The notes beneath the pieces were generated by a model. The model was not told the DNA's origin and made no database searches. It saw only the letters and a list, made by a program, of their open reading frames with translations. DNA of 64,000 bases, taken from NCBI GenBank assembly GCA_948567375.1, contig OX419758.1, positions 68,663,965 through 68,727,964 of the forward strand, written 5' to 3'. Numbering within the stretch: the first letter of the stretch is position 1; the number at the start of each line of letters is the position of its first letter. Source of the stretch: Lunularia cruciata (Eukaryota; Streptophyta; Marchantiopsida; Lunulariales; Lunulariaceae). This document shows, piece after piece, positions 653 to 42,780 of this stretch. A program made the position numbers and the translations under genes.

Positions 653-3600
653 TGAACTCGCAACAAAGCAATGTCGAGCAATTTTCCTTTGCCGTTGAGG
701 AGTCATCTTGCAAGTGATCGTGGGAAGGGAAATAGAGTGGGAGATGCGCTAGTGTGTAAGGGAGAAGTCGCAAGAGTGAAACCAAGCAACAGTGAGAAAG
801 CCGGAGAGATGGGAGGAGGAAAGAAGAACTCCAAATTTGCAATGAGAACTCATGCAATTTAGAGGTTAGATGTGATCGCGAGGATCAAAGTCTTGAGCCG
901 ACTTCAGATCACCTTCTTGGCGTGGAATTGGAACGTGAGTTTTCCAGGTTTCATGACAGAGATCATCAAGAGCAAGTGTCTCGATGGACCCAAGGAAGAA
1001 GGGAACAGAGGAAATCCAGCTCGCTGGACAGAGTCGGATTGGAAATTAGTACTTGAGAAGGAAGTAGGCTCGGAGTTGGGGGCCACGTTCTTGGGGAAGG
1101 GAGAGATAGCCCAAGAAACCCAAGAGGTGAGAGATGTATTCTAGTCAAAGCGGACAAAGAATGGGTACAAAGTAGAGAGTTACAAAGACCCTGTCAAGAG
1201 AGGAATTGTGAGTGCTCTGATGGCAATCCTGAAGCCGGAGAGAACAACATATGTGATGAAACACCAAGCGGTGTTCTTTCACAAATTGTTTGCAAGAGAA
1301 CCAATTAATTGGGCGAGGTGTTTCCATGAGAGAACACAAAAAATGGTGTGGAATCTGTGGGATAAATCACCTCCACATTACATCGTGCCGTTTGCAGCTC
1401 ATTTCTACCTTGGGTTGAATTTGCTGAACTTGGCGGAGCAAACTCAGATGGTGTTGCATTTCTATCCCAATTTGAGAAGGGAAGTCGATGTAGAGGAGCA
1501 GCAATACATCTTACAAATCAGAAGCACCAACGAGTACTATAAGAAGACAAGGAAGAATGTGGAAATCAAAGTGAGTACTCCAAAGTCAAAGAAGAGAAGT
1601 CGGCAAGGCAAAGCCAAAGATAAGACAAAACCTTACAAGACCAGAAGAGGAAACCCGAGGCAAGGCATGGTGGTGATTGAGTCAGAAGACAAGGACTTGG
1701 AAGGTGAAGCCGAGTGCAAGTCCAAAGATTCGGAACACAAGGAGGAACCCGAGCTAATGCTACAAAGTGGAAATACGAGTAGTGATAGCAATGAGGGTGG
1801 AGAAATAACATCAGGGCCAGCTGCTGCAGAGAAGGAAGAAGAAGTGTAGGCAGAAATCGAAGCCAAGGACAACACAAAGCTGGAAGATGAAGTACACGAG
1901 GCAGAAGAGAAAAACATCGCAATATAGAGGAGAGTGTGCTCAAGACGCAAGGCAAAGTGTGATGCAGGTCCGAGTAACATGAGAGAAGAAGGGAATGAAA
2001 GCTCGAGAAGCGAGGCGTCAGTTCCGATACAAAGACTGTAGAGAAGAAGGTGAGTATTGGATGAAAAAAAAGTGAGAAGAGAAATTGCTATGCAAGAAGA
2101 GGTAAACCCGAGTGATGGAGTCAAGTACCTACGGGAGGTGGTGTGTCCATTGTTGGTGAAATTGGAGCACAAGAAGAAGGAGATGCAGTTAACTTGTCTA
2201 GAGGTGAAGACTGTCTTGCAGGTGTTATCAAGATTAGAAGAAGAGAACTCGGAGTTGAAGAAGAGTATAACCCAAGGTGAGGAGGAAAGTAAAATAATGC
2301 AAGTGGAGGCAGTGGTGAAGACTCAGGTAATTGAAGACCTGAAGAGAGAAGTGAGTTATCAAGAAGATCTTGTTAAGAAGAGTGACATAGCAAGAGAAAG
2401 GCAAGTAGCAGAATATGAAATCTTGAAGCAGCATTTTGCTGATTCAAGAGTAGAACTTATCCATGCTATGGTGAGAGTAGCAACGAAGGATCAAGAGCTC
2501 GATAGGGTGTGTGACAACCCGGCAAATATCACTTTTGCGGTAATCGGGTAAGTAAAGTTCGTTCCCGTAGAGATATGATCCAAAATTGGTCAAATACGAA
2601 GTCAAAAGTCATAATTGCAGTTCTTCTTGATGGCTTCTTTAATCTCTCAGGTAGAAACTACACCCAGAAGAGAGTAACAAGCTCACAATCTTGACAACTT
2701 GTCACGAATTCGCACACATAATCACAACATAGTCAATTTTGTCCAAACAACTCTTGATTGTGATGATTCAGATTCTCTCGAAGACGGCACTTCACTGCGA
2801 AGAACAATTTTGACTCAGAATTGTGTTCCACCCCTCCACTGAAGGCACAACTTCCTTGATCAAAATTGCTTCACACCAACTTCGTGCTACAATCACAAAT
2901 GCAGAATACTAACAACACTACAATTCCTCTCAGACCTGTCAAGGCATTGCTCCGATGCACTTCACTTAGGATCAAACACACAAAATGAAGATCAAGGCTG
3001 TAGACCCCAACATCCACAAACACACTGACTTGCTCTTCGGAATTCTCCACACTCACAAACAAAAACACGAAATTGACAATCGGAATTAAGCTTAAGCGAC
3101 GAGTACTGAAAACATCACTTCTATACTTTATCTATCTTTAGAAAGATGAATACTGAATAACATCGTACTGTGAATGCTTCACTTAAATACTGAAGCAAAT
3201 GGCAGATTTGCCTACCTAGGCACCGCTTCCTAACATCGCTTCCTACTCACAGATCCCAAGGGACAATCTACCTCTTCATATCTGCTCTTTCCTATCTCAA
3301 AATCGACTTTTATCCCGATTCGATGTCTACCTCATCATCGGCTTCCAAACCCGATGATCTTCTTACTACTTCACCTTCTTTGGGTATGACTGATTCTACT
3401 AATTTCTTCACAACTTCTACAACTTCTACACTAGGAACTACAATTGAGCTCATGGGTAATCCATCTACACTCTTATTTCCCGACCCACTCTTCTCTAAAG
3501 TGTCAATTCTCAAGTCCGATGACACCTGACTTCCTACTTCTACGACATCGGGTTTCTTCTCCACTGTCACACTATTCCAAATTTTCTCCAATTCCAAATT

Positions 3601-4454
3601 CCTTCAGCCTCCGTGCTTAGAATTGCTTGTAATCTCCCAGCAAGGTCCCCTACTGAATCTGTGACAACCCGGCAAATATCACTTTTGCGGTAATCGGGTA
3701 AGTAAAGTTCGTTCCCGCAGAGATACGAGTCAGAAATGTCCAAATACAAAGCAAAGTAACAATTTCAGTTCTTCTTGAGTTCTTCTTTAGTCTCTCAGGT
3801 AGAAACCACACCTAGAAGAGAGTAACAAGCACTAACTTGCAGTCTTGTCGCAAATTAACACTCCAAAATCACAACTCCATCAATTATTTCCAAACAATCT
3901 TGATTTGTGATGATTCAGGCTCTCCTGAAAACGACACTTCACTGCAAAACAACTTCACCTCAGAATTGTGTTCCACCCTTCCACTGAAGGCACAACTTCC
4001 TCGATCAAAATTGCTTCACATCAACTTCGCACTGCACTCACAAATGCAGAATACTACCAACACTACAATTCCTCTCAGATCTGTCAAGGCATTGCTTCGA
4101 TTGCACTTCACTCAGGATCAAACACACAGAATGAAGATCAAGGCTGTGGAATCCAACATCCAACAAGCACTCTGACTTGCACTTCAAATTTCTCCAAACA
4201 TTCACAAACACAATTGCAAAGTTGATACTCGGAATCAAGCTTAAGCGACGAGCACTGCTTCACAGTACTTCGCTTTATCTATTCTCAAAAATAATGAGCA
4301 CTGAACAACAATTTCCTGCGAATGCCACTCTTAAGTAGTGAAGCAATCGACAGTTCTAACAACTATACCGTTTCTACAACAACTGTTCTAACCTGCAGAT
4401 CCGAAATGACAATGCACCTCTTCATATCTGCCCCTTCAAATCTCAAATCGGTTA

Positions 4455-7081
4455 CTAATCCGATCCGATGTCTACTTCTTCTTCAGCTTTCAACCCTGAA
4501 CCCGAAGTAATCTTACTTCCTACTATTCTGTCCTCGGGTTTCACAACTCTTACATCTTCTACCAGATCCAGCAATTCTCTTTCTTGATCTGAAATTCCAC
4601 TAGCAGGTAATCTATCCAGCTCTTCATCTTTCGACCCACTCTTCTCTACTGTTCTTGAGACCAACTCCGAAGACATTTGGATCCCGATGTTATCTACGTC
4701 GGGTTTTGCTTTAACATCCTGCCGAAGCTTTTCTAACTCTATTCTTACTAAGTCTAATCTAATGCGATATTGTCTTCTACTTCTAAGATCTTCCTATCTA
4801 CGCGAGTTCTCAACTTAATCAACAAGGCATTCAGATCTGTATCTTTCGCTTGCCTTTGCCTTGTCTCCTGCACTAACAGCTTCAACTCGTGCAGACGTGT
4901 TTCTTCAATTCGAACGCTGGCCTCTGTACTTAGCATCGTGTTTACTCTGAGGACTATCTCCTGCAATGGCTCTAATCTTGTCTTCCTTTCTCGTTCCCGA
5001 TCTGCAAGCCATTCCTCTCTGTACATCGCCAACTCTTCTTCAAATTCGGCCTTCACCGTGTCCTTCTCTTTCTCCTTCTGTGCAACCTTTTCTTCCTGAT
5101 TACAAAGTAAGTCTCGTAATCTCTCTTCTTCTCCATATCTCGCAGCCAACTCTCGCTGCCAGAGTTGCTTCTTCTCCTCCATACTCTCCATCACTTGATC
5201 AAGCTCTTGAACCTTCAATGCTACTCTCGCCATAGCATGGATGAGCTCTACTCTTGAATCAGCAAACTGCTGCTTCAAGATTTCAAATTCAGCTACTTGT
5301 CACTCCCTTACGACATCACTCTTCCTCGCAAGATCCTCTCGATAGCTCAATTCTCTCCTCAGGTCTTCGATTACCTGACTTCTCTCCACTGCTTCCAATT
5401 GCAGTACTTCTCTCCCCTTCTCACCTCGGGTCAAACTCTTCTTCAACTCCAAGTTTTCTTCTTCTAATCTTGCCAACACCTGCAATACAGTCTTTACCTC
5501 TGGACAAGTCGACTGCATCTCTTTCTTCTTATGTTCTAACTTTACTAACAACGGACACACCACTTCTCGCAGGTACTCCACTCCATCACTCGGGATTACT
5601 TCTTCTTGTGCGGCTACTTCTCTTTGTACTTTGTGTTCATCCGATACTTGCCTTCTTCTCTGCAGTCTTCATATCGGAATTGATGCTTCACTGCCCGAGC
5701 TTCCTTCTACTTCTTCTGTCACTCTACTCGGTCCCGCTTCCCCCTTCGCCTTTCGTCTCGAGCGAATTCCTCGCTGTACTGCGATCTTCTTCTCCTTGAG
5801 CACCGGTACTTCGTCTTCCAGCGCTGCATTGTCTTTGGCTTTTACCTCGGCTTGAATTTCTTCTTCGTATTCTTTAGGCGTTGGTGCCGAGGTCATTTCT
5901 CCACCGACTTCACTATCACTGCTTGTATCTCCACTCTGCAGTGTCAGCTCAGGTTCCTCCTCACGTTCCGAGTCCTCTGTCTTGAGCTCAACTTCGCCTT
6001 CTGAGTCTTCATCTTCTGACTCAATCACCACCATTCCTCGCCTCGGGTTATTTTTCTGCATCTTCTGAGGTTTCTTGTTTTCTTCGGCGTCTGCTTGCCG
6101 AGTTCTCTTCTTTGTCGGGGTACTTTCAACGACCTCCACGTTCTTCCCTGTCTTCGAGTAGTAATCGTCTGTGCTCCGGATTTGGAGAATGTATTGCTGC
6201 TCCTCCGCATCGACTTCCTTTCGCACATCCGGATGGAAGTGTGACACCATCCGATTCCGCTCCGCCGAGTTCAGCAAATTGAGCCCGAGATAGAAATGCG
6301 CTGCAAACGGCACAATATAATGTGGAGGGGACTTATCTCGCAGATTCCACACCATCTGCCTTGTTCTCCCGTGAAAACACCTTGCCCAATTAATTGGTTC
6401 TCCTGCAAACAATTTGTGAAAGAACACCGCTTGGTGTTTCATCACATAGGTAGTTCTCTCCGGCTTCAGGATTGCCATCAAAGCACTCACAATTCCTCTC
6501 TTGACAGGGTCTTTGTAACTTTCTACCTTGTACCCATTCTTCGTTCTCTTCGACGAGAAGGCATCTCTCACCTCCTGAGTTTCTTGGGCTATCTCCCCTT
6601 TCCCCAAGAACGTGGCCCCCTGCTCCGAGCCTGCCTCCTTCCCGAGTACGAGTCTCCAATCCGACTCTGTCCAGCGAGCCGGATTTCCTCTCTTCCCTTC
6701 TTCCTCGGGACCATCGAGACATCTACTCTCGATGATTTCTGTCATGAATCCTGGAAAACTTATGTTCCAATTCCATGCCAGAAAGGTGATCCGAAGTCGG
6801 CTCAAGACTTCGATCCTCGCTACTACATCTAATCTCCGAATTGCATGATTTCTCACTACAAATTCGGAGTTCTTCTTTCCTCCTCCCATCTCTTCTGCTT
6901 TCTTTCGGTGTCTTGATTTCGCTCTCTCGACTTCTCCCTTACACACTAACCCAAGGCCAACCCTATGTCCCTTTCCCCGATCACCTGCAAGACGACTCCT
7001 CAACGGCGAAGGAAAATTGTTCGACATTTTGTCGTTGCAGTTTTGATTTTTATAGAGTTGCACTTCTTCGTCTTTCGTCAC
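4455..7081 (-). pseudogene. LTR-borne coding tract in A 3' LTR
   Basis: The first open stretch (5669-7081) encodes 470 residues from MTKDEEVQLYKN. After a basic N-terminus comes a domain of about 220 residues rich in W, F and Y (FLAWNWNISFPGFM, GNPARWTESDW, INWARCFHGRTRQMVWNL, YIVPFAAHFYLGLNLL). A Lys-rich then strongly acidic linker (ESEDEDSEGE) follows. Coil-forming coding in the same orientation continues to about 4455 (LVKLEHKKKEMQ, LEEENLELKKS, RLHELKLLVQETRQ). Nothing resembles gag, protease, RT or integrase. The pattern 'LKPERTTYVMKHQAVFFHKL' faintly recalls the 'putative plant transposon protein' domain known from plant databases, but that is only an impression. The whole tract is broken in a few places. 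Confidence 0.75.
7046..7055 (-). promoter_or_regulatory. TATA-like box in A 3' LTR
   Basis: CTATAAAAAT on the minus strand, 388 bp from the LTR start, identical in sequence and offset to the 5' LTR copy. Promoter role inferred. Confidence 0.55.
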
Positions 7082-7408
7082 TTCGAGTTTCTACCAAGAA
7101 ATCACACCTCTTGCATGCACCCGTTACTGTCGCCTCACCTTCACGCGTATGAGCCGCCAATTTTGAAACCGCCCCTTCTTGAATTTCTCACCCCGATGAA
7201 AGGTTGTTAGACTGTCTCTGCCTTGGGTTGAGCTCCCCTCCCCGATCCAAAGACAATTTACTTCGTATCGTTTGCTGACACGGCATTTCAGAGTACTTCG
7301 CCTTATGACCCGAGGTCACTTTACTTCGGGTTTCACCCCAAAGACAGTTTTCGTCGTCTTCTTCGGCCAACCAGGCGCAATCTGACTTCTCTATACACTT
7401 CTTCGGCT

Positions 7409-8401
7409 TTATTTTGAAAAAAACAAAAAATGTGGGCACCACATACCCCCTCCCTCAAATGTGAGCGTCCCCGCAAACATAGACCTCGGTGTTTTAGAAA
7501 CTTCCGAGTCTATGGTCCAATATCTCCGAACTCTCCACCCGTTTACTTGAGTGGCAAAAGGATTACCTTCCAAATCGACGAGTTGCAGGGATCCATTTTC
7601 GTAAAGATGACGAACTCGATAGGGACCCATCCATCGCAAATGCAACTTGCCTGGAAAAAGTATTCGGCGATTATCATATAACAAAACCAAATCCTCTTCT
7701 CGTACAGTCACAGGCTTGATTCTCTGATCGTGCCTGAATTTCCGCTGTGCTTGTACTTCTTTCGTGGTTTGCATTGCATCGTCTCTTTTCTCTTGTAACC
7801 ACATCAGTTGTTGAATCCGAAGATCCTGACTTTCCTCTTCCGAAATTCGTTCTTCGCACAGGACTCGATAAGTTGGGACTTCAAATTCAACTGGCAGTAT
7901 GGGGTGCAAGCCATATGTCAAGAAGTATGGAGTTTGTTTGGTTGTAATCTTCTCTGTTGTCCGATAGGCCCATAACGCGGCTGGTAATTTTGTATACCAG
8001 TCATAGGCATAATTGGCTGTCACCTTATTCAAAATTTTACAAAGTAACCCATTCGCTTTTTCCGTTAAGCCATTCGCTTTTGGGTTATAAGGAGTCGTCT
8101 TCCGATGTTTAATCTGAAAATACTTGGTTAACTCTTCCATTACAGAGTTCAAAAAATGTGTTCCTCGGTCACTGACCAATTCCAGAGGACACCCATATCG
8201 GGAGATGATGTTTCGAAAGAAAAATTCTGCCACAATTTTAGCATCGTCTCTGCGAGTTGCTTCCGCTTCAACCATCTTGGTAGCGTAATCAGTGCAAACC
8301 AAAATATATCGCTTTCTTGTGACTCGGGTTACTAGTTGAATGGGACCCACAAAATCAATACCCCATTTCTCAAAGGGGGCCAAAGGCAAAATTGGTTTCA
8401 A
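7409..8401 (-). CDS. Element A: integrase core and C-terminal part
   Basis: This 330-residue stretch carries the integrase catalytic fold: WGIDFVGPI with the first acidic strand, VSDRGTHFLNSVM with the second, and the TPYNPKANG helix region. The usual 'ALWAYRTTEKITTKQTPY' segment and a basic C-terminal domain (LPGKLHLRWMGPYRV-like) follow. It continues the pol coding of 8405-11902. The protein would insert the element's cDNA into the genome. The frame ends just inside the 3' LTR, after crossing the polypurine tract. No chromodomain is seen, unlike in J. Confidence 0.88.
   Translation of the reverse strand: MKPILPLAPFEKWGIDFVGPIQLVTRVTRKRYILVCTDYATKMVEAEATRRDDAKIVAEFFFRNIISRYGCPLELVSDRGTHFLNSVMEELTKYFQIKHRKTTPYNPKANGLTEKANGLLCKILNKVTANYAYDWYTKLPAALWAYRTTEKITTKQTPYFLTYGLHPILPVEFEVPTYRVLCEERISEEESQDLRIQQLMWLQEKRDDAMQTTKEVQAQRKFRHDQRIKPVTVREEDLVLLYDNRRILFPGKLHLRWMGPYRVRHLYENGSLQLVDLEGNPFATQVNGWRVRRYWTIDSEVSKTPRSMFAGTLTFEGGGMWCPHFLFFSK
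7445..7459 (-). other. 3' polypurine tract of A
   Basis: On the minus strand, a purine run containing GAGGGAGGGGGT lies two bases before the 3' LTR start (TGTGGTGCCC). This is the expected site of plus-strand DNA priming in LTR retrotransposons. The integrase reading frame passes through it into the LTR. Confidence 0.85.
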
Positions 8402-8404
8402 AGG

Positions 8405-11400
8405 TCATTGAGAAGTGGCCGTCGGCTTCCCCGTTCTCTGACACGCATCAAAGCTTCGAATATGAGCATGTACATCTTTGTACATTGTAGGCCACCAATA
8501 CCCTGCCGAAAGAATTTTCTTTACAGTATTCTTCAGAGCATAGTGTCCTCCCGATGCCTCGGAGTGTAAAGATTCAATTACTCCTCCTACTTCATATGAC
8601 TCCAAGCATCGCCGAAGTACTTCATCTTCGCCCATCTTAAATAAAATGCTGTGTTTAAGCTGGTACGGCCCCATTTTCCGGAGAAAGACTGCCCGCTGTT
8701 CCGGATCCATCCCCTCAGGACAATGGAGAGTATTCAGATAATTATATTCATCTGCATACCTTGTACTTCTCATTGCTGATAAGTGATACAACTCTTCATC
8801 AGGGAACCAATCGTCAATTTCCCACTCCTGGTCTTGAGTGTCTAACCTGGACAGGAAATCCGCATTCGAATGCGAAGCTCCCTCCCTTACTTGTACAGTA
8901 TACGTGAACTCTTGTAATAACAAGATCCATCTTGCAATTTTTCCCGATAAATCTGCCTTCTTGACCAGATGTTGCAATGCATAATGGTCAACATAGAAGA
9001 CAAACTCATACCCCAACAAATAATGCCAAAATTTCTTGCAGGCATACACCATTCCGAGTGCTTCTCTTTCCGTCGTTGAATAATTCTTTTCAGAAACTGA
9101 AAGTTGTCGGCTGGCGTAATACACCGGGTAATCTTTCTTCTTCTCGTCCTTTTGACTTAAGACAACCCCGATGGCCATGGACAAAGTATCCACATACACA
9201 TGAAAAGGGACGTCCCAATTCGGGGCCCTCATGACTGGTGCTTCAACCAGTTTCTTCTTCAACACCTGGAAGGCTTCTTCTTGATGTGCTTCCCATAGAT
9301 AGTCTTCGGATTTCTTCAGAAGCTTTGTAAGTGGTGCAGCAAGCACTGCATAGTTTGACACGAAGTGTCTGTAATATCCGACATGTCCCAAGAAGGCTCT
9401 CAGCTCCCAAATGTTCTTCGGGGATTCCAAAGCTGCGATTATTTTAACCTTCTCAACATCGACTTCAATACCTCGGCTTGACACCCGATGCCCCAGAAGA
9501 ATTCCCTCCTTCATTGCGAAGAAGCATTTCTCCGGGTGTAATGACAAGCCGGCAAAACGACACCTTTCAAACATTTGGCGAAGGTAATCTCTATGTACAT
9601 CCCGTCGTCCAAACACACAAAAGTCATCAATAAAAACTTCGACAAATTTACGCAGGAAATCTTTAAAGATCGAATTCATCATCCACTGGAAAGTAGCGGT
9701 AGCATTACACAACCCAAAGGGCATTTGATTGTAAGCAAAAGTGCCCCAATCGGTCGTGAATGTAGTTTTATCCTTGTCTTCTTCCCGAATAGATACTTGA
9801 TTGTACCCTGAAAATCCATCGAGAAAACTATAACAATGATGCCCAGCCACCTGGTCTAAGATTGTATCGGTAAAAGGCAAGGGATGATGATCTTTCCTTG
9901 TGACTGCGTTCAATTTTTGAAAGTCTTGGCACACTCGGATCTTCCCTGTTTTCTTCTTTGGGACAATGACAATGGGGGAGACCCATTCACTGCTTAAGAC
10001 AGGGAAGATGATTCCGGCCCCTAAGTACTTATCGATTTCATCTTTTACCAAGAGCGAGTACTTCGGGTTCAAGCGGTATTGTCGCTGCCGAACCGGAACT
10101 GCACCTTCAATCAAATCAATCCGGTGTTCTCCAAATTCTTGTGGAATACCCGGCATTTGATCAATCGACCAGGCAAATACATCCTGGAATTCTATAAACA
10201 GGGCAGTGTATCCTGCCAACTCCTCCGAAGTAACTGTCTTCGAGATTTTTAAAATTTTTCCTTCAGTGACTAACACCTCTTGACAGTCATCGGGGTTGAT
10301 GACTCCTTCAACGTGGCTTACTCGGCTTATCCCGAGGCGAGCGGCCATCAAACCCCCTCCCTCCAAGTCAGGTTCACCCGAGGCGAGGTCATATGGATCT
10401 TCGTCGTCAACCTCTACCTCGTAGCATTCCAAGTAATTAACTTGGACTTCTTCTTCGGATTCGTCTGAAGACGAAGACAATGAATCTTCGGACTCGTCCT
10501 CCTCTTCTGACAAACTTGTTTCCCCGAGATGGGGAACCTTCGTCCAACTCACAGTCACCAGCTTCTGATCCTTGGACGAAATGTCCTTGAATCTTAACTT
10601 CTGCTGATGCCAATCTACTACAACTTGGGCACTATACAACCAGGGTCTGCCGATCAACAGAGGGTAACCAGTTTTTGTCACTGGCTGCAACACGATGTAA
10701 TTCAACTTGAAGGGTACCCCTCCAATGATCGTGGTAATGTTCGACAGCATGCCCAAGGGCCGTCTCCTGGTTTGGTCTGCGAACTTCACAACTCGGGGTG
10801 TTGGTTCAAACGTATGATACCCGAGTTGATTTGCAGTATCTTCGGTCATGACATTCACACCGGACCCAGAGTCAATGGGTATCGATGTGATCATGCAACC
10901 TGCAATCTCCGCGTCTACCTCGGGAGATCCCAAATCTTCTTGTTCAATACGATAAATAGCAGGCAGGTCCTTCTTTGACATCAACCTCACCTTCTTGAGG
11001 GCCGAGTTAAGCTGTCTCTTGTACAGCTTGTTATCTTCCCACAATTGCTTAAATGTAACATTGGCATTTGTGGTGGCCAAGTCGGCTATAATATCATATT
11101 GGGGAACTCCTCCCAATTTGACCGTCTTCGTCTTCGGCTTTGAGTCCGAGGACTCTCCATGCTCCCTTTTGACGTCGGGACGCTTCAAAATGGTGATGGG
11201 CTTGCTGATGGCCTTAACTCGAGCTTCCTCGGGTTGGCCTACCTCGGCTTGAATCAGACCCTTTACTTCGGATTGGATGTCCGCCGGAAAAATTGGAGAC
11301 TTCGTCTTTGTCTCTTCTTCCAAACTTAGTTCCCGAGTCCTGAGTAATGCCTCCGTTAATTCTTTCTGCAAGGCTTTAGCTTTAGCTTTTGCAAGGATCT

Positions 11401-11902
11401 TTTCCTCCTTGGCCAAAAGAATTGCTTTTGGGCACTGTCTCTTTGCCTTTCGGGAAGACGACGAGGTCATACTCAGTTCTTTGGGATCACGCTTCTTCTT
11501 GGTGGAGCGTGTCTCAACTTTCAAAATTTCAAGGTCTGGCCATTCTCCTTCTGAGGCCGGACTCCCTTCGTGAGGTCTTTCTTCCTCAAGAGTTATACAA
11601 TTCACATTCGTATCCCCCTTCGGCTGAAGTGCTGCACGCTCAGCGGGGGTCTGTACATATTTTACAAGAGGCTTCGGGTTCAGCGGGTGAGGGCATTGGT
11701 TGCCCGTATGCCCCGATCCTTTACAATTTCCACACAGGGGAATGTACCCAATTTGCCTTCTTGGCTCGGGACAATTTGGAGACCAATGTCCCATCGAGCC
11801 ACATTTATAACATGCTCCGGGCGCAACATTCTGAGGGCGATTTTGGTTGCTCATCGGTGGTCTTCGTGCATGAGCATTGGGGTTATACTCCCTGGGTCCC
11901 AA
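8405..11902 (-). CDS. Element A: gag tail, protease, reverse transcriptase, RNase H, integrase zinc domain
   Basis: This open stretch of 1165 residues encodes most of pol. In order: two CCHC knuckles (CYKCGSMGHWSPNC, CGNCKGSGHTGNQC), a Lys/Glu-rich spacer, a retropepsin (IPIDSGSGVNVM near 10870; LLIGRPWL), an acidic linker, and reverse transcriptase (RVCQDFQKLNAVT, LDGFSGYNQV, MPFGLCNATATF, FIDDFCVFG near 9630, LGHVGYYRHF). RNase H follows (VYVDTLSMAIGVVLSQ, TTEREALGMVYA), then the start of integrase with its His/Cys zinc domain (GGHYALKNT...). It would process Gag-Pol and copy RNA into DNA. It lies between gag (11987-13525) and the integrase core (7409-8401). Confidence 0.93.
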   Translation of the reverse strand: MGPREYNPNAHARRPPMSNQNRPQNVAPGACYKCGSMGHWSPNCPEPRRQIGYIPLCGNCKGSGHTGNQCPHPLNPKPLVKYVQTPAERAALQPKGDTNVNCITLEEERPHEGSPASEGEWPDLEILKVETRSTKKKRDPKELSMTSSSSRKAKRQCPKAILLAKEEKILAKAKAKALQKELTEALLRTRELSLEEETKTKSPIFPADIQSEVKGLIQAEVGQPEEARVKAISKPITILKRPDVKREHGESSDSKPKTKTVKLGGVPQYDIIADLATTNANVTFKQLWEDNKLYKRQLNSALKKVRLMSKKDLPAIYRIEQEDLGSPEVDAEIAGCMITSIPIDSGSGVNVMTEDTANQLGYHTFEPTPRVVKFADQTRRRPLGMLSNITTIIGGVPFKLNYIVLQPVTKTGYPLLIGRPWLYSAQVVVDWHQQKLRFKDISSKDQKLVTVSWTKVPHLGETSLSEEEDESEDSLSSSSDESEEEVQVNYLECYEVEVDDEDPYDLASGEPDLEGGGLMAARLGISRVSHVEGVINPDDCQEVLVTEGKILKISKTVTSEELAGYTALFIEFQDVFAWSIDQMPGIPQEFGEHRIDLIEGAVPVRQRQYRLNPKYSLLVKDEIDKYLGAGIIFPVLSSEWVSPIVIVPKKKTGKIRVCQDFQKLNAVTRKDHHPLPFTDTILDQVAGHHCYSFLDGFSGYNQVSIREEDKDKTTFTTDWGTFAYNQMPFGLCNATATFQWMMNSIFKDFLRKFVEVFIDDFCVFGRRDVHRDYLRQMFERCRFAGLSLHPEKCFFAMKEGILLGHRVSSRGIEVDVEKVKIIAALESPKNIWELRAFLGHVGYYRHFVSNYAVLAAPLTKLLKKSEDYLWEAHQEEAFQVLKKKLVEAPVMRAPNWDVPFHVYVDTLSMAIGVVLSQKDEKKKDYPVYYASRQLSVSEKNYSTTEREALGMVYACKKFWHYLLGYEFVFYVDHYALQHLVKKADLSGKIARWILLLQEFTYTVQVREGASHSNADFLSRLDTQDQEWEIDDWFPDEELYHLSAMRSTRYADEYNYLNTLHCPEGMDPEQRAVFLRKMGPYQLKHSILFKMGEDEVLRRCLESYEVGGVIESLHSEASGGHYALKNTVKKILSAGYWWPTMYKDVHAHIRSFDACQRTGKPTATSQ
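10352..10363 (-). other. Internal copy of the polypurine tract in A
   Basis: The minus strand reads GAGGGAGGGGGT, the same 12 bases as in the 3' polypurine tract at 7445-7456. It lies between protease and RT, about 170 bp from the exact centre of the element. It could act as a central priming site, or be a coincidence of the coded Leu-Glu-Gly-Gly-Gly. Confidence 0.45.
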
Positions 11903-11986
11903 CCTCGGACCTTGATATGATGTGCTCGGTTGAGGCTATACCTCCTGAGTTTGATACACCGCCTCTTCGTCATCGTCTTGGTCCCA

Positions 11987-13525
11987 TCACGGAACCCAAT
12001 CAATTTGCTGCACCGGGAATGCATTACGAGTATTGCATTCTGTGTTGGCGTGGCCGGATTTTCCACAGGCGGTGCACCACACATTAGATTGTCCAAATGC
12101 GGGGGCCTTTCTTCGGTCCTTAGCCCCAATCATCTGGATCTTGAAATCCGAAAAATCCTTGATGAGGGCATCCAGCTTCATATCCGCCTTATGTACACTA
12201 TTAGCTGGCGACGTCACTGGTTTCTTGGCTCCATGTCTTCTGACTCGTCTTGGCTTTGATTCTTCTTCGAATTCCAAAGAAGAGCTTGAAGATGTAGAGG
12301 ATTCATCCAAAGAAGGGGAGGTACTATGCGAAGCTCTCCTTCTGAGCTTCTTGCCCTTCTTCTCCCGATTTCTCCGGTTACCGGCAGAGTGAGAGTGTGC
12401 CGCTTCATAACGAGCGAGATGTTTGAGTACTTTATCGAGGGAAGTTACGTTCCTCTCCCTGGCAAAGATTCGTATCTCTGGTGATAGGCCCCCGAGGAAC
12501 CAGGTAATGGCTTGGGCATCGGAGTATCCCACCACCCCCGATTGCTTGGGAACTCGGTTCAGTAATGCCATGAACTGCTCAGAGTAGTCCCTCAACTTCT
12601 CCTTCTTGCCTCGGTCCAAATCGTTTAGTGCCGCGAAGACACTCGTATCATAGTCAACCTCCCAAAATTGTTCCAGGAAGTTGTTTCTCAAGTCTGCCCA
12701 ATCCGATTGTACAAACCCCTTTTGAGTCACATGCGTGTACCAGCTCCGAGCTTTCTTGCAAAGCAGACTTGGAAAAATTCTTAGTCGATCCGCCGAGTCA
12801 TGCTCCTTGTTAGCAAAGGAGATGACTTTGAATTCTTCGATGAATTCATCGGGGTCTTCGTCTTGTTCTGTCCCCTTATACTTCTGATAGGCGTGTCGGG
12901 TGACAGGAAGCGAAGTCATCGTTTGATGCACTGGGATCGGCTGAGGGAATGTAGAACTTGACGGAACGGAAGAATTGGCTGGAATTGACGCCGTGTTGTC
13001 AGCCCAGGGATTCCAATTCGTCAAATTCAACATAGGGTCTTCTTCGACAATTTCTACTCTGAGAGGGTCGACTTCAACCCGAGTAGAAGATTTAGGATCA
13101 AAACCTTCAATAAGTTCTTCCAAATTCCTTCGGGACAACCGAGGAATCGTTCGTAGAAGATGTTGACACTCGTCTTCAGTAAGTGTGCGTGCTGTCTTTT
13201 CTCGAACAAAGGTCTTCAAGGAAACAACTTCCTTTACAGCTCTAGGGGAAGTTGGGGTATTGGGCCGCAATGCATATGTTTGCCCACTCGATTCTTTCTT
13301 CTTCTTGGAAGAAGAGGGAGAAGCGAAGTAGCCTTGCCAACCGCCTTCGCGTTTCTTGTGATCAAGTTCTCGCAGGGCTTCTTGCACTTCATGAAGGAGT
13401 TGAAACTCCAACACCTCTTGCTCAATTTCGTCAACGATGGATGGGGCGTTCAGACATTTGTCTTCTTCACGCTGAAGTGCTCGTCTTTGGGCTCTCTCTT
13501 CCCGTTGTTCTTTCAATCTAGACAT
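11987..13525 (-). CDS. Element A: gag
   Basis: This 512-residue stretch starts MSRLKEQREERAQRRALQ, just inside the primer-binding site. A basic coil-forming N-terminus is followed by a Ser/Pro-rich region and the typical retrotransposon capsid fold (DEDPDEFIEEFKVISF, ARSWYTHVTQ, WADLRNNFLEQF, LRDYSEQFMALLNRVP, ITWFLGGLSPEIR). A basic, Ser-rich tail and one CCHC knuckle (CTACGKSGHANTEC) end it. Gag packages the genomic RNA in virus-like particles. The next coding stretch (8405-11902) is in the same frame and adds two more knuckles before protease. Confidence 0.92.
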   Translation of the reverse strand: MSRLKEQREERAQRRALQREEDKCLNAPSIVDEIEQEVLEFQLLHEVQEALRELDHKKREGGWQGYFASPSSSKKKKESSGQTYALRPNTPTSPRAVKEVVSLKTFVREKTARTLTEDECQHLLRTIPRLSRRNLEELIEGFDPKSSTRVEVDPLRVEIVEEDPMLNLTNWNPWADNTASIPANSSVPSSSTFPQPIPVHQTMTSLPVTRHAYQKYKGTEQDEDPDEFIEEFKVISFANKEHDSADRLRIFPSLLCKKARSWYTHVTQKGFVQSDWADLRNNFLEQFWEVDYDTSVFAALNDLDRGKKEKLRDYSEQFMALLNRVPKQSGVVGYSDAQAITWFLGGLSPEIRIFARERNVTSLDKVLKHLARYEAAHSHSAGNRRNREKKGKKLRRRASHSTSPSLDESSTSSSSSLEFEEESKPRRVRRHGAKKPVTSPANSVHKADMKLDALIKDFSDFKIQMIGAKDRRKAPAFGQSNVWCTACGKSGHANTECNTRNAFPVQQIDWVP

Positions 13526-13588
13526 TCATATTGCCTTGATACCCAGTGTTCAATTTGGCTTCGTATTCTTCCACTTCCGAGATTTGTA

Positions 13589-13606
13589 TCCCCGGCAGCG
13601 GCGCCA
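13589..13606 (-). other. Primer-binding site of A (tRNA-Asp type)
   Basis: The minus strand reads TGGCGCCGCTGCCGGGGA, seven bases inside the 5' LTR end. It differs at one position from TGGCGCCGTTGCCGGGGA, the Asp-tRNA complementary site common in Athila/Tat-type plant elements. It primes minus-strand DNA synthesis. Confidence 0.9.
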
Positions 13607-14408
13607 AAAATCATGTGACAACCCGGCAAATATCACTTTTGCGGTAATCGGGTAAGTAAAGTTCGTTCCCGCACAGATACGAGTCAGAAATGTCCAAATA
13701 CGAAGCAAAGTAACAATTTCAGTTCTTCTTGAGTTCTTCTTTAGTCTCTCAGGTATAAACCACACCCAAAAGAGAGTAACAAGCACTGACTTGCAGTCTT
13801 GTCGCAAATTAACACTCCAAAATCACAACTCCATCAATTATTTCCAAACAATCTTGATTTGTGATGATTCAGGCTCTCCCGAAAACGGCACTTCACTGCA
13901 AAACAACTTCACCTCAGAATTGTGTTCCACCCTTCCACTGAAGGCACAACTTCCTCGATCGAAATTGCTTCACATCAACTTCGCACTGCACTCACAAATG
14001 CAGAATACTACCAACACTACAATTCCTCTCAGATCTGTCAAGGCATTGCTTCGATTGCACTTCACTCAAGATCAAACACACAGAATGAAGATCAAGGCTG
14101 TGGAATCCAACATCCAACAAGCACTCTGACTTGCACTTCGAATTTCTCCAAACATTCACAAACACAATTGCAAAGTTGATACTCGAAATCAAGCTTAAGC
14201 GATGAGCACTGCTTCACAGTACTTCGCTTTATCTATTCTCAGAAATAATGAGCACTGAACAACAATTTCCTGCGAATGCCACTCTTAAGTAGTGAAGCAA
14301 TCGACAGTTCTAACAACTATACCGTTTCTACAACAACTATTCTAACCTGCAGATCCGAAATGACAATGCACCTCTTCATATCTGCCCCTTCAAATCTCAA
14401 ATCAGTTA

Positions 14409-17038
14409 CTAATCCGATCCGATGTCTACTTCTTCTTTAGCTTTCAACCCTGAACCTGAAGTAATCTTACCTCCTACTATTCTGTCCTCGGGTTTCACAA
14501 CTCTTACATCTTCTACCAGATCCAGCAATTCTCTTTCTTGATCTGAAATTCCACTAGCAAGTAATCTATCTAGCTCTTCATCTTTCGACCCACTCTTCTC
14601 TACTGTTCCTGAGACCAACTCCGAAGACATTTGGATCCCGATGTTATCTACGTCGGGTTTTGCTTTAACATCCTGCCGAAGCTTTTCTAACTCTATTCTT
14701 ACTAAGTCTAATCTAATTGCAATATTGTCTTCTACTTCTAAGATCTTCCTATCTACGCGGGTTCTCAACTTAATCAACAAGGCATTCAGATCTGTATCTT
14801 TCGCTTGCCTTTGCCTTGTCTCCTGCACTAACAGCTTCAACTCGTGCAGACGTGTTTCTTCAATTCAAACGCTGGCCTCTGTACTTAGCATCGCGTTTAC
14901 TTTGAGGACTATCTCTTGCAATGGCTCTAATCTTGTCTTCCTTTCTCGTTCCCGATCTGCAAGCCATTCCTCTCTGTACATCGCCAACTCTTCTTCGAAT
15001 TCGGCCTTCACCGTGTCCTTCTCTTTCTCCTTCTGTGCAACCTTTTCTTCCTGATTACGAAGTAAGTCTCGTAATCTCTCTTCTTCTCCATATCTCGCAG
15101 CCAACTCTCGCTGCCAGAGTTGCTTCTTCTCCTCCATACTCTCCATCACTCGATCGAGCTCTTGATCCTTCGACGCTACTCTTGCCATAGCATGGATGAG
15201 CTCTACTCTTGAATCAGCAAACTGCTGCTTCAAGATTTCAAATTCAGCTACTTGTTGCTCCCTTACGACATCACTCTTCCTCGCAAGATCCTCTCAATAG
15301 CTCAATTCTCTCCTCATGTCTTCGATTACCTGACTTCTCTCCACTGCTTCCAATTGCAGTACTTCTCTCTCCTTCTCACCTCGGGTCATACTCTTCTTCA
15401 ACTCCAAGTTTTCTTCTTCTAATCTTGCCAACACCTGCAATACAGTCTTTACCTCTGGACAAGTCTACTGCATCTCTTTCTTCTTATGTTCTAACTTTAC
15501 TAACAACGGACACACCACTTCCCACAGGTACTCCACTCCATCACTCGGGATTACTTCTTCTCGTGCGGCTACTTCTCTTTGTACTTTGTGTTCATCCGAT
15601 ACTTGCCTTCTTCTCTGCAGTCTTCGTATCGGAATTGATGCTTCACTGCCCGAGCTTCCTTCTACTTCTTCTGTCACTCTACTCGGTCCTGCTTCCCCCT
15701 TCGCCTTACGTCTCGAGCGAATTCCTCGCTGTACTGCGATCTTCTTCTCCTTGAGCACCGGTACTTCGTCTTCCAGCGCTGCATTGTCTTTGGCTTTTAC
15801 CTCGGCTTGAATTTCTTCTTCGTATTCTTTAGGCGTTGGTGCCAAGGTCATTTCTCCACCGACTTCACTATCACTGCTTGTATCTCCACTCTGCAGTGTC
15901 AGCTCAGGTTCCTCCTTACGTTCCGAGTCCTCTTTTCTTGAGCTCGGCTTCGCCTTCTGAGTCTTCATCTTCCGACTCAATCACCACCATTCCCTCGCCT
16001 CGGGTTATTTTTCTGCATCTTCTGAGGTTTCTTGTTTTCTTCGGCGTCTGCTTGCCGAGTTCTCTTCTTCGTCGGGGTACTTTTAACGACCTCCACGTTC
16101 TTCCCTGTCTTGGAGTAGTAATCGTCTGCGCTCCGGATTTGGAGAATGTATTGCTGCTCCTCCGCATCGACTTCCTTTCGCACATCCGGATGGAAGTGCG
16201 ACACCATCCGATGCCGCTCTGCCGAGTTCAGCAAATTGAGCCCGAGATAGAAATGCGCTGCAAACGGCACAATATAATGTGGAGGGGACTTATCCCGCAG
16301 ATTCCACACCATCTGCCTTGTTCTCCCGTGAAAACACCTCGCCCAATTAATTGGTTCTCCTGCAAACAATTTGTGAAAGAACACCGCTTGGTGTTTCATC
16401 ACATAGGTAGTTCTCTCCGGCTTCAGGATTGCCATCAAAGCACTCACAATTCCTCTCTTGACAGGGTCTTTGTAACTTTCTACCTCGTACCCATTCTTCG
16501 TTCTCTTCGACGAGAAGGCATCTCTCACCTCCTGAGTTTCTTGGGCTATCTCCCCTTTCCCCAAGAACGTGGCCCCCTGCTCCGAGCCTGCCTCCTTCCC
16601 GAGTACAAGTCTCCAATCCGACTCTGTCCAGCAAGCCGGATTTCCTCTCTTCCCTTCTTCCTCGAGACCATCGAGACATCTACTCTCGATGATTTCTGTC
16701 ATGAATCCTGGAAAACTTATGTTCCAATTCCATGCCAGAAAGGTGATCCAAAGTCGGCTCAAGACTTCGATCCTCGCTACTACATCTAATCTCCGAATTG
16801 CATGATTTCTCACTGCAAATTCGGAGTTCTTCTTTCCTCCTCCCATCTCTTCTGCTTTCTTTCGGTCTCTCGATTTCTCTCTCTCGACTTCTCCCTTACA
16901 CACTAACCCAAGGCCAACCCTATGTCCCTTTCCCCAATCACTTGCAAGACGACTCCTCAACGGCGAAGGAAAATTGCTCGACATTTCATCGTTGCAGTTT
17001 AGATTTTTATAGAGTTGCACTTCTTCGTCTTCCGTCAC
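14409..17038 (-). pseudogene. LTR-borne coding tract in A 5' LTR
   Basis: This is the second copy of the protein described for the 3' LTR, starting MTEDEEVQLYKN at 17038. The N-terminal 353 residues are open and differ from the 3' LTR copy at scattered positions. Linker and coiled-coil coding continue in the same direction to about 14409 (VEDNIAIRLDLVRIELEKL near the end). The tract starts close downstream of the TATA-like box, so a transcript begun there would meet it first, about 3.4 kb ahead of gag. It has a few breaks. Confidence 0.72.
17003..17012 (-). promoter_or_regulatory. TATA-like box in A 5' LTR
   Basis: CTATAAAAAT on the minus strand, 388 bp from the LTR start. Its position puts a predicted start site near the beginning of the LTR-borne coding tract. 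Promoter role inferred from conservation across copies. Confidence 0.58.
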
Positions 17039-17405
17039 TTCGAGTTTCTACCGAGAAATCACACCTCCTGCATGCACCCATTACTGTCGCCTCACCTTCA
17101 CGCGTATGAGCCGCCAATTTTGAAACCGCCCCTTCTTGAATTTCTCGCCCCGACAAAAGGTTGTTAGACTATCTCTGCCTCGGGTTGAGCTCCCCTCCCC
17201 GATCCGAAGACAATTTACTTCGTATCGTTTGCTGACACGGCATTTCAGAGTACTTCGCCTTATGACCCGAGGTCACTTTACTTCGGGTTTCACCCCAAAG
17301 ACAGTTTTTGTTGTCTTCTTCGGCCAACCAGGCGCAATCCGACTTCTCTATACACTTCTTCGGCTTTATTTTGAAAAAAACAAAAAATGTGGGCACCACA
17401 GAATC

Positions 17406-19436
17406 CGATGCGTATCCTCGAGAACGCTCCACCTTCAACTCCACCCGATACATTTGCAACTCGTCTTCGTATTCTGCAGCGAGCATCTTCTTCACCTCTG
17501 CATACTGCACTTTCGGCTGCTCCGCACTCTTGACAAGTTCTCGCAAACGCTCTTCTTCTTCTTGCCTTGACGCCAATTCTCTCTGCCATGCTTGATCTTT
17601 TGCTGCGGCACTCTTCTTCAAGCTGTCCAATTCTTGCTCCATTACGATGTTCATCGCCTTAAAATGGACATTCTCGACGCGCACATTACTTACTTCCTCC
17701 TGCATCTTACTGAGCCACATCACCTGCTCCTTCAACTCTCCGGCTTGCTTTTGCAGGTCCTTCTCCTTTTCTGCACAACTCTCTTGTAACACGCTCAACA
17801 TTTTCTTCCTCGAATCTTCCTCCCTCCGAAGATCTTCAATTTCTGCACTTCTTTGGATTTGATGCTCCTGCAGCTCCTTGACTTCCTTCAACAGATGCTT
17901 CACCACCTGCAGCTCATTCATCCCTTTAACTTGATCTTGGGGAATTCCTCTCCGATGTTCCTTCAAAATCTCCAGCAATGGTGTGACCACCTTCGTTAAA
18001 TATAATATCCCGCCGAAAGTTTCTTCTTCATCATTGCCTTGTTCGTCTGGAGTCTTTTCCTGTGTCATCGGTTCCTTCATCCAAAGTCGCGATCTTTGTA
18101 TCTTCAGAGTGTTAGCGCTATCTTCGTCTTGGCCTCTTGAACTTGGCCCCGCGGGATATTCCTTCTTTGCTTCGAGTTTTGGCTTGTTCTCCACCATTGC
18201 CTTGCCCGCTTCACTCACCACCACTGATTGCTGGACTTTGGGCTCTCCCTCACTTTCACTACCCGACTCCCCACTCTTCAACGTGAGCTCTTCTTCTTCT
18301 GAGTCTTCTTCTTGCGACTCCGTTTCTTCATCAGACTCCGATCCCGATGATGCTCTTCTCACGACATTGGCGGTCTTCAACATTAGCCTCCGAGTCTTGC
18401 GTTGGATGGCTGATGGTTTAGCTTCTTTGGGTTTACTTTGCTTCTTCGTCTTTGGACTGGCCGCATCTTTGATCTTCCACTGTCCCGTTCTCGCAAAGTA
18501 TTTGTCATTCGCCCGCAGTTGAAGCATATACTGTTGCTCCTCCTTGTCGGCTTCTTGTCTCAAATTAGGGTGCATGTAGGAGACCATATGATGCCGCTCG
18601 TCTTCAAAGAGCAAGTTTAGGCCAAAGTAGAAATGTGCTGCAAATGGCGCAAAATAATGCGGTGGCGAGCCTATTTGCCAATTCACTACCATCTGCCTTG
18701 TTCAGTGATGGAAACACTTTGCCCAATTCACGAGTACTCCTGCAAACATCTGGTGGAAGAAGACCACCTGCTGCATGGTTACATACGTTGTTAGCTCCAG
18801 CTTGAACATGGCCATCATCGCCTCTACGATACTTCTTTGGATCGGGTCCCGATAGGACTCCACCTTGTAACCATTTGTAGTTTGTGGAGCGAAAAACGAG
18901 TTACAAATCTCCTCTATCTCCTCTACAGCATCACACTTCCGATAGAAGGTGATTCCTGTTGGCTCTCCTGCTTCTCTCCCCTGGACTGACTTCCAATCCG
19001 ACTCAGTCCATCGAGCCGGATTGCCTCTCTTCCCCTCCACTTTGGGACCCTCCTCACAATTACTAGCAGCGATTTCTGCCATCACTCCCGAGAAACTGAA
19101 ATTCCAATTCTAGGCTAAAAAGGTGATACAAAGTCTAACCAAGACTTCGATCCTCACTACTACGTCTACCCTTTGAATTGCAAAACCTCTCACTGCCAGC
19201 GCGTTGGCCACCTTCTTTGCCATGATTTGTTCTCTCGTTCTATGCTGTTGGAAGATCAGCTCCTCTCCTGGTCGAGACACTCTAACTCCCTCAGGGTTTC
19301 GGAAAATTTCACTCTCTACGGGCTTCTGGACACGCATTCCTGCAAGATGACTACTCAGAGGAATTGGAAATTTACTCAGCGGATTCAACTTCCCTCTGCG
19401 CATTTGCAATTTTATATTGCTCCAAATCGCAGTCAT
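17406..19436 (-). pseudogene. LTR-borne coding tract of B (5' part)
   Basis: On the minus strand this encodes the second version of the LTR protein: the conserved core GNPARWTESDW, NGYKVESYRDP, VFFHQMFAG and WAKCFH, with different surrounding sequence from A. A long acidic linker and a coiled coil follow. One open stretch of 507 residues (17169-18692) runs over the insertion junction into the start of the A LTR, so its last portion is not B protein. The rest of the B tract lies at about 3310-3659, left of A. It is broken in a few places. Confidence 0.7.
19408..19417 (-). promoter_or_regulatory. TATA-like box in B LTR
   Basis: Read on the minus strand, ATATAAAATT lies 372 bp from the LTR start, exactly the offset seen in E and close to the 384-388 bp seen in A, C and G. 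Promoter role inferred. Confidence 0.5.
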
Positions 19437-21330
19437 TCTTCAGTCAATTTTGTCTGTGAGTTTCTCCCTTCTGTGTGCTCTCCCGGTCAATGTCAAGACA
19501 TGCTTCTTCTGCCCTTGCCATTTCTTGAAATGTACTTTCTTGCCACGTACCAAGGTTGTTAAACGGTCTTCATCATTCCTGCGTTTTCCAACCCAAAGAC
19601 GATGATCTTCGGCCTGCTTCTGGCGTCCTCCTCTTCCGAGTACCTCCATCATCAGATCTGATGTGAGCTTCTTTGGCTTTCCTTCGAAGTTACTTTCACC
19701 TTTTCGTTGTTTGCAATTTGACTTTTTCGTGCTTACTTTGTCTCTTAAACACTACTAACCATAAAAAAACAAAAAATGTGGGTACCACAAGGTGATAGAG
19801 AGTATAGAAGAGAAGAAGCAACTCTGGCAAAGAGAGTTGGCAGTACGATATAGGGAAGAAGAGAGATTACGAGAGTTACTTTGTAATCAGGAGGAGAAGG
19901 TTGTACCGAAGGAGAAGGAGAAGGAAACGGTGAAAGCTGAGTTCAAAGAGGAATTGGCAATGTATAGGGAGGATTGGCTTGCAGATCGAGAGCAAGAAAG
20001 GAAGATGAGATTGGAGCCATTGAAGGAGATAATCCTCAAGATGAACGTAATGTTAAGTACGGAGGCTAGCATTCAAATGGAAGAAACAAGGTTGCACAAG
20101 TTGAAATTGTTGGTGCAAGAGACAAGGCAAAGACAGGCAAAAGACACTGATTTGAATGCCTTGTTGATCAGTTCAAGAACTCGTGTAGACAGGAAGATCT
20201 TAGAAGTTGAAGACAATATTGCGATTAGATTAGACATAGTGAAATTAGAGATAGATAAACTTTGGAAGGATGTTAGAGCCAAACCCAAAGCAGATAACAT
20301 AGGAGTGCAGATGTCTTCGGAGTTACCATTGGAGACATTGGGGAAGAGTGGGTTGAGAGATGAAGGTTTAGAAGGGTTACCCACTAGTGCAATTTCAGAT
20401 CATGAAAGAGAATTGTTGGATCTGGTAGAAGAAGTAGAAGATGTGAAACCCGAGGACAGAGTAGTAGAAAGTAAATTTACTTCAGGTTTGGGTTTGAAAG
20501 CCAAAGAAGAAGTAGACATGGATCGGAGTACTAATAGTTTTGAGATATGAAGAGGCAGATATGAAGAGGTGCATTGTCATTTTGGATCTGTAGGTTAGAA
20601 AAGTTGTTGTAGAACGGTGTAGTTGTTAGAACTGTCAATTGATTCACAATTTAAGAGTGGCATTCGCAAGGAATTGTTGTTCAGTGCTCATAATTCTGAG
20701 AATAGATAAAGCAAAGTGCTGTGAAGCAGTGCTTGTCGCTTAAGCTTGATTTTGAGTATCAACTTTGTGATTGTGTTTGTGAGTGTTGGGAGAATTTCAA
20801 AGTGCAAGTCTGTGTGTTTGTTGGATGTTGGATTCCGCAACCTTGATCTTCATTTTGTGTGTTTGATCCTGAGTGAAGTGCAATCAAAGCAATGCCTTGA
20901 CAGATCTGAGAGGAATTGTAGTGTTGGTAGTATTTTGCATTTGTGAGTGTAGTGAGACGTTGATGTGAAGCAATTTTGATCAAGGAAGTTGTGCCTTCAG
21001 TGGAGGGGTAGAACACAATCCTGAGGCAAAGTCATTTTGCAGTGAAGTGCTATTTTTGGGAGAGCCTGAATCATCACAATCAAGATTGTTTGGAAAGATT
21101 TGATGGAGTTGTGATTATGGAGTGTTACTTTGTGACAAGACTGCAAGTCAGTGCTTGTTACTCTCTTCTGGGTGTGGTTTCTACTTGAGAGATTAAAGAT
21201 GCAACCAAGAAGAACTACATTGTTATTGTTTGACTTTGTATTTGGAAATTTCTGACTCGTATCTCTACGGGAACAAACTTTACTTACCCAATTACCGCAA
21301 AAGTGATATTTGCCGGGTTGTCATAGAGCT

Positions 21331-33574: not shown

Positions 33575-33584
33575 CTATAAAAAT
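33575..33584 (+). promoter_or_regulatory. TATA-like box in G LTR
   Basis: CTATAAAAAT, 384 bp from the LTR start, as in A and C. Promoter role inferred. Confidence 0.55.
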
Positions 33585-33603
33585 TAGGCTAAAGACAAAG
33601 CAA

Positions 33604-39911: not shown

Positions 39912-39924
39912 AACCTCCCTCCTT

Positions 39925-41468: not shown

Positions 41469-41522
41469 GTTGAAGCATTGTCACCACTCTACCTATCGAA
41501 TCTAGCGACGAGATAGATCCTT

Positions 41523-42640: not shown

Positions 42641-42780
42641 CTTCCGTGGGAGTGTCTCAATTTTATGATCTACTCTCCTTTTTGGTTGTAATCCTAAGGG
42701 TAGATCATCAAGAAGACATCTTGAAACTCATTTACAACATGCTTCAATTTCTCAAGAATTTGTCCCTCGAGTTGTGCACT

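Follow-up and report, generated by a model that had tools for sequence, protein, structure and literature searches.

The 64,000-nucleotide stretch of the liverwort Lunularia cruciata studied here (contig OX419758.1, positions 68,663,965 to 68,727,964; hereafter the window) contains a Ty3/gypsy retrotransposon, element A, both of whose long terminal repeats (LTRs) hold a protein-coding frame in the same sense as gag and pol, referred to below as the LTR gene (Table 1). The genome of this species is described as having been enlarged by Ty3/Gypsy bursts (PMC9985172). Element A shows the traits by which Ty3/gypsy elements are recognized: a TG...CA LTR pair, a 5-bp target-site duplication (TSD), a primer-binding site (PBS), a polypurine tract (PPT) that adjoins the 3′ LTR on its upstream side, and gag followed by protease, reverse transcriptase (RT), RNase H and integrase, with a protease match under the Pfam cut-off and with broken frames. 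Its LTRs start with TGTGGTGCC, finish with TTGTCACA and are 97.6% identical to each other (92 differences over 3784 aligned sites). Stops in one frame divide gag from pol at the boundary (11936-11989, minus), and the pol frame is interrupted by a stop at 8405-8407 (minus) between the H2C2 region and the integrase core. The RNase H was matched only by RT-linked Pfam models, an additional RNase H being a trait of Tat elements within the OTA (Athila/Tat) lineage, and no chromodomain, a trait of chromoviruses, was found with Pfam at E <= 1 in the 331-codon integrase frame.

The LTR gene is most open in the 3′ LTR of element A, where 473 codons are free of stops from one stop to the next (5669-7090) and 406 follow the methionine at 6889; beyond this first part the frame carries on to ~4770 with two in-frame stops and then a frameshift. 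The longest open run in 2000 first-order Markov simulations of the same LTR was 222 codons. Over the seven LTRs of the window the frame holds 2-15 stops per 588-702 codons, whereas the remaining sense frames hold 40-68 and 28-35. No window copy has fewer than two in-frame stops, and frame shifts occur in some as well. Unbroken versions are present elsewhere in the same genome, with 811 codons for the type of LTR A and 778 codons for that of LTR E (one copy seen), and the two types share 45% protein identity.

Five further LTR copies (B, D, E, F and G) surround element A, all with the same-sense frame. Element A sits in B (minus) and B in D (plus), G (plus) sits in F (minus), and E (minus) stands alone; B has a TSD with one mismatch and is without an internal region. 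Relatives of the N-terminal domain were found by tblastn and profile searches in every LTR copy, as well as at two further, decayed sites of the window. A preliminary description, made from the letters of the window alone, had proposed that the ~3.8-kb LTRs of A and several other LTR copies carry one long coding tract in the sense of the element, and this holds. As a separate observation, 25956-26433 and 37472-37951 form an inverted match of 480 bp at 92.5% identity, one side of which adjoins LTR E and the other of which lies inside the 5′ part of LTR F; this part is longer than expected ahead of its gene, and the match is perhaps an insertion.

Table 1. Positions of element A, the other LTR copies and the LTR-gene sequences within the window.
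Feature	Positions	Strand	Remarks
Element A, Ty3/gypsy retrotransposon	3660-17400	minus	LTR pair, TSD, PBS, PPT, gag, pol
A, 3′ LTR	3660-7443	minus	TG...CA, 3784 bp
A, 5′ LTR	13614-17400	minus	3787 bp
A, TSD GAATC	3655-3659; second copy 17401-17405		5 bp
A, PBS TGGCGCCGCTGCCGGGGA	13589-13606	minus	follows 5′ LTR
A, gag	11987-13525	minus	Retrotrans_gag and Ty3_capsid matches (Pfam)
A, pol, main part	8405-11935	minus	zinc knuckle, RT, RNase H, H2C2 (Pfam)
A, pol, integrase part	7409-8404	minus	open frame enters 3′ LTR by 35 bases
LTR gene, A 3′ LTR	5672-6889	minus	first open part from Met, 406 codons
LTR gene, A 5′ LTR	15992-16846	minus	N-terminal part, 285 codons in frame; broken beyond
TATA box upstream of LTR gene, A 3′ LTR	7048-7054	minus	TATAAAA, LTR position 390; Met at LTR position 555
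Conserved non-coding LTR 3′ end	3660-4440	minus	about LTR positions 3000-3784 of A; second TATA-like motif
LTR B	17401-19789 (5′ part); 2510-3655 (3′ part)	minus	N-terminal part of gene 18381-19217
LTR D	258-2509 (5′ part); 19791-21325 (3′ part)	plus	exact TSD GAGCT; without internal region; LTR gene from 809
LTR E	26434-30129	minus	exact TSD AATAA; without internal region; N-terminal part of gene 28721-29557
LTR F	30348-33190 (3′ part); 36923-38426 (5′ part)	minus	own 3′ end missing; interrupted by G
LTR G	33191-36922	plus	exact TSD CTCCA; without internal region; LTR gene 33765-35879
Decayed distant LTR-gene relative	50117-50638	minus	within 3′ LTR of divergent element
Second decayed distant relative of N-terminal domain	56026-56454	plus	45.7 bits

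Differences between the window copies, tallied here and below at codon positions 1/2/3, gather at third positions of the open reading frame (ORF): 99/81/214 between D and the copy in the 3′ LTR of A (A3), 124/105/298 between A3 and G, and 83/69/158 between B and E. The non-coding LTR ends on either side of the ORF have no marked third-position excess. A known gene gives a yardstick, the pol of A and that of the element at 51.8-53.9 kb differing at 213/149/364 sites. The in-frame ratio of nonsynonymous to synonymous divergence (dN/dS) is 0.10-0.20 in all 10 between-element pairs for which it could be estimated, the other 10 of the 20 being saturated in dS. Five of the pairs (A3-D 0.17, A3-G 0.10, D-G 0.13, B-E 0.20, F-G 0.12) were analyzed in all six frames; the sense frame of the LTR gene had the lowest dN/dS and the fewest stops in every one, with one tie, and values of 0.71-1.30 were obtained for the other sense frames and 0.23-1.60 for the antisense frames.

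The same genome assembly (565.8 Mb, 74 contigs) was then the scope of a wider search. With the 473-codon frame of A, 90 of 90 scored candidates matched (the best 90 of 26,671 first-look candidates), 36 of them stop-free in the matched part and nine stop-free over the full 878-879-codon stop-to-stop frame; with the E copy, its stops read through, 139 of 139 matched (the best 139 of 22,977 candidates). As only the best candidates were scored, these matches are not copy counts. Among 30 A-type loci, the methionine is at the same place in 29 and the 811-codon gene is stop-free in four, while at their upstream ends 10 follow a PPT and two are without a readable LTR start. The 778-codon gene is unbroken in one of the 19 E-type loci analyzed.

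The timing of selection can be read from the two LTRs of each of ten elements (twenty loci). The LTRs of a pair are identical at insertion and thus within-pair differences arose afterwards; a difference on which both LTRs of an element agree was taken as inherited. Post-insertion changes in the ten pairs are even over the codon (154/128/164, or 0.035/0.044/0.041 per C/G site), and 607 of 735 within-pair changes (83%) are C>T or G>A, with particular CGA and CAG codons turned into stops repeatedly, in more than one element. Inherited variable columns of the ten A-type elements, each counted once, number 58/48/93 in the ORF, including 12/9/30 in the N-terminal domain and 33/28/57 in the coil region, and 10/7/2 and 5/7/5 in the flanks. 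The per-column count for the E family covers 19 of 20 loci, one having been dropped because its start was not recognized, and gives 46/40/113 for the N-terminal domain, 37/35/72 for the linker and 89/56/151 for the coil, next to 35/35/39 for the 5′ non-coding part and 28/26/35 for the C-terminus. Since the inherited changes are rich in third positions and the post-insertion changes are even, selection has acted mainly in the transposing lineage. The LTRs of these liverwort-type Ty3/gypsy elements hold a protein-coding gene in the sense of gag-pol that is under purifying selection during transposition, and its copies drift largely neutrally after insertion. Third-position excess between copies and relatives outside the locus, both asked for in the preliminary description, are thus in place.

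Several observations weigh against this picture, or against parts of it. In the A type only the N-terminal domain and the coil show a clear third-position excess; the linker (13/11/6) and the C-terminal stretch (13/10/14) show none. A pairwise tally of inherited changes (683/551/1255 over 45 comparisons) was set aside for the per-column counts because it counts one site many times, and it was uneven even in the non-coding flanks (122/63/33 and 43/110/53). The LTR pair of A itself has a dN/dS of 0.34, from few changes (16/13/18; 47 differences). Within pairs the ORF has diverged less than the flanks (411 of 10430 versus 198 of 3474 C/G sites), as it has in seven of the ten pairs taken singly; by context the figures are 261/2340 versus 141/1018 for CG, 105/1840 versus 39/608 for CHG and 45/6250 versus 18/1848 for CHH sites. 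Gene conversion, methylation differences or weak selection could cause this lower divergence after insertion. In six of the ten elements one stop is common to both LTRs (6 shared and 28 unshared stops). Such elements may have transposed, with help in trans, although their gene was already broken, or a hot-spot site may have mutated twice, and parallel C-to-T change at CGA and CAG codons could be the source; the shared stops weigh against a strict need for the LTR gene in cis. The start codon is uncertain, as an in-frame ATG lies at LTR position 417 in A, ahead of the methionine at 555, although the stretch between the two has little coding signal per column (4/5/5 in A, 15/12/16 in E). Finally, two structure models of the product are both poor (predicted local distance difference test scores, pLDDT, of 43 and 44).

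The product has an aromatic-rich N-terminal part, an acidic linker and a C-terminal part rich in Glu, Lys and Leu, judged by the composition of one unmodified copy. The domain order given in the preliminary description agrees with this composition; the coiled coil that it placed at the end is moderately supported, with 17 of 500 shuffles attaining the observed heptad score. The sole match among PDB sequences is a weak one to a GCN4 chain (E 0.046). Basic patches are located at 272 (KKPRK) and 407 (RRLQRRR). The N-terminal domain may be loosely like the "putative transposon" domains of plants.

Nothing credible was found for the product in Pfam, in PDB sequences or among ~5.8 billion proteins, the protein search giving no match at E <= 10 with either a single sequence or a six-copy alignment, within the limits that repeat-masked annotation may omit such genes and that a word-based search misses remote relatives. 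With pol as a control, the same protein database returned 1993 relatives, the best from Riccia sorocarpa at 70% identity and others from Marchantia and Calypogeia; the blank is therefore not for want of liverwort proteins. The LTR-gene domain was absent from the 120 listed pol relatives (best E 0.36), and viral contigs held no relative. A relation of the LTR gene to the element's own gag or pol, which the preliminary description had denied by eye, gained no support from the comparison. Sub-cut-off Pfam matches to YwqJ-deaminase (E 0.05-2), Peptidase_S49_N (0.1-0.4), SnoaL_4 (0.2-0.4), DUF2300 (8.5) and YqhG (1.7) were taken as chance. Neither the copies, the unmodified full-length proteins nor the distant relatives matched the Transposase_28, plant mobile domain or Athila ORF-1 models of Pfam at E <= 10, a negative that leaves room for a remote fold relation as the filters of HMMER drop most weak matches.

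The decayed relative at 50638-50117 is 26% identical to the LTR gene and lies downstream of a related pol (pieces at 51387-55297), within a 3′ LTR whose start was placed by eye at 51316, from a PPT-like border; the 5′ LTR of this divergent element was not found. The relative lies at LTR position 679, versus 660 in A, and the pol pieces are about 40-48% identical to those of A (27% in the most upstream piece). From the matching LTR position it follows that the arrangement was in place before elements at ~40-48% identity in their pol pieces diverged from one another, and matches inside LTRs of other elements, another support sought in the preliminary description, are thereby provided. A pol fragment at 62916-63916 (plus), 35-37% identical to the pol of A, was also noted 6.5 kb downstream of the relative at 56026.

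Two TATA-like motifs recur in these LTRs. In the A type, TATAAAA is found 165 bp ahead of the methionine, at the same place in 30 of 30 loci; in the E type a TATA motif is found 193 bp ahead, in 17 of the 19 loci analyzed. The second motif, of the TATTTAA type in B, E, F and G and a variant in A and D (CTACTTAAG in A), is found close to where the final ~700 bp of the LTR begin. These last ~700 bp are the most conserved non-coding part of the LTR, with an A versus E identity of 0.69-0.93 compared with 0.42-0.73 in windows upstream, and are probably the gag-pol promoter and R-U5. From the two motifs, the second at the conserved LTR 3′ end, we infer two promoters and a location of the LTR gene in U3. 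The LTR gene would be transcribed from its own TATA promoter inside the LTR, about 165-190 bp upstream of its start, and gag-pol RNA would start at the second motif; a full element would then have two copies of the gene and a solo LTR one, and the gene would occupy U3 as sag does in mouse mammary tumor virus (MMTV).

The predicted protein, with its aromatic-rich N-terminal part, acidic linker with basic patches and probable coiled coil, probably serves the element in trans, in an accessory or regulatory capacity. We regard this reading as a whole, a selected LTR gene in U3 with its own TATA promoter and a trans-acting accessory product, as fairly probable. As to what the product does, the most likely role, though still a tentative guess, is that it works on chromatin or on the DNA of the LTR, for instance to counter silencing; the basic patches, together with the probable coiled coil, would suit a protein of the nucleus or of chromatin. 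VANC of VANDAL21, a DNA transposon, is a transposon-encoded anti-silencing protein; the likeness proposed here is one of function only, a trans-acting element protein working on the element's own non-coding DNA. It is also conceivable, if somewhat speculative, that each LTR amounts to a mobile gene complete in itself, equipped with a promoter and an ~800-codon ORF for a novel protein family, and probably with a polyadenylation region as well. If so, retrotransposition and LTR-LTR recombination would spread many solitary genes through the genome that go on producing an element factor active in trans, and solo LTRs would be helpers instead of dead remains.

The strongest rival concerns the promoter and not the gene. 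The upstream TATA could start the genomic RNA, so that the LTR gene lacks a separate promoter and is the first cistron of a transcript with a very long R-U5, with gag-pol translated by re-initiation, splicing or an internal start. The TATA ahead of the gene matches more clearly than the second motif and occurs in all 30 A-type loci; on the other hand, minus-strand strong-stop DNA would have to reach about 3.4 kb, and it is the last ~700 bp, with the second motif, that are the most conserved non-coding part. We consider this arrangement unlikely, while giving it some weight. At the other extreme, composition or an antisense gene might explain both the openness and the third-position pattern, the frame itself being passive or an artefact. 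The 5′ LTR of A does hold an antisense open frame of 318 codons and one antisense frame has a dN/dS of only 0.23-0.33, a low value owed to the same degenerate sites being shared by that frame; yet the sense frame surpasses it in low dN/dS and few stops in all five pairs, one tie included, and the simulated maximum is less than half of the observed open run, so that we give this explanation almost no credence.

Other origins and other units of selection can be envisaged for a real gene. A captured host gene or fragment, carried passively or kept in some copies, would account for the want of similarity to gag or pol and for a two-part architecture unlike that of gag, but it sits poorly with purifying selection across several subfamilies, with a related sequence inside the LTR of a distantly related element and with the lack, within the reach of a word-based search, of a related protein in a database that does contain liverwort proteins; we judge it improbable. 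Selection at the loci themselves, with persisting LTR copies as host-domesticated genes, appears more doubtful still. Some copies have intact frames, the ORF has diverged somewhat less than the LTR flanks since insertion, and the A pair has a dN/dS of 0.34, from few changes; against this, within-element differences are even over codon positions, 28 unshared stops have gathered in ten pairs, and C>T or G>A accounts for most of the changes. A selected gene carried in the LTR by the transposing lineage remains the explanation that we prefer.

Other repeats were noted in the window. A second Ty3/gypsy element at 39925-43376 (minus) has RT and integrase matches at 40537-42712, and its ORF at 39925-40329 looks chromodomain-like by eye. 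The places 39170-39912, 44988-46266 and 54190-54925 belong to a repeat family of ~500-760 bp with four copies, 82-92% identical and one of them inverted.

The usual view takes LTRs for regulatory DNA and solo LTRs for relics, whereas here the LTR carries a selected gene. As a consequence, work on such genomes that counts elements, dates LTRs, masks repeats or surveys small RNAs may be misreading protein-coding sequence. The LTR-gene family also makes it possible to test directly whether solo LTRs can provide an element factor in trans. Extra genes as such are familiar in plant Ty3/gypsy elements. The additional ORFs (aORF or eORF) covered in a review are ORFs of the internal region (PMC7264820), and a survey classes extra ORFs by their position relative to the polyprotein, naming Transposase_28, plant mobile domain and Athila ORF-1 (PMC6317226). 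Grande gene23, RIRE2, Retand ORF4 (Transposase_28), the plant mobile domain of Ogre and Athila ORF-1 resemble the LTR gene in being extra Ty3/gypsy genes for divergent proteins of mostly unknown function, one of them nuclear and one with an SMC domain (PMC7264820, PMC6317226). As far as they are described there, they differ in being internal, mostly between pol and the 3′ LTR, and in sense or antisense orientation, whereas the gene described here is in both LTRs, in sense, and is without a credible Pfam match. The same survey reports LTRs of up to about 5 kb, and ORFs located in LTRs could sit unnamed among its classes (PMC6317226). Rice Retrosat2, RIRE3 and RIRE8 likewise combine very long LTRs (about 3 kb or more) with an extra ORF, ORF0, which is by description upstream of the gag-pol ORF and is not described in the available text as internal to the LTR (PMC3485330); Retrosat-2 is placed under Del/Tekay (PMC6317226).

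The preliminary description had also suggested an undescribed system. For plants this stands within the open-licence literature, to which our use of the word is limited, as no plant case of an ORF within an LTR was recognizable from its titles and abstracts, including those on liverwort elements. More widely it does not stand, because the LTR of MMTV, an unusually long one, encodes sag, which overlaps U3 (PMC9147501), and a provirus accordingly has two sag copies. The likeness lies in location, a protein gene inside the LTR and present in both LTRs; the elements are unrelated, the MMTV LTR is about 1.3 kb versus 3.8 kb here, and sag is a superantigen in animals whereas the present host is a plant. 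With these differences in mind, the LTR gene can be viewed as a plant parallel to MMTV sag, the closest parallel that we found being that of a mouse retrovirus.

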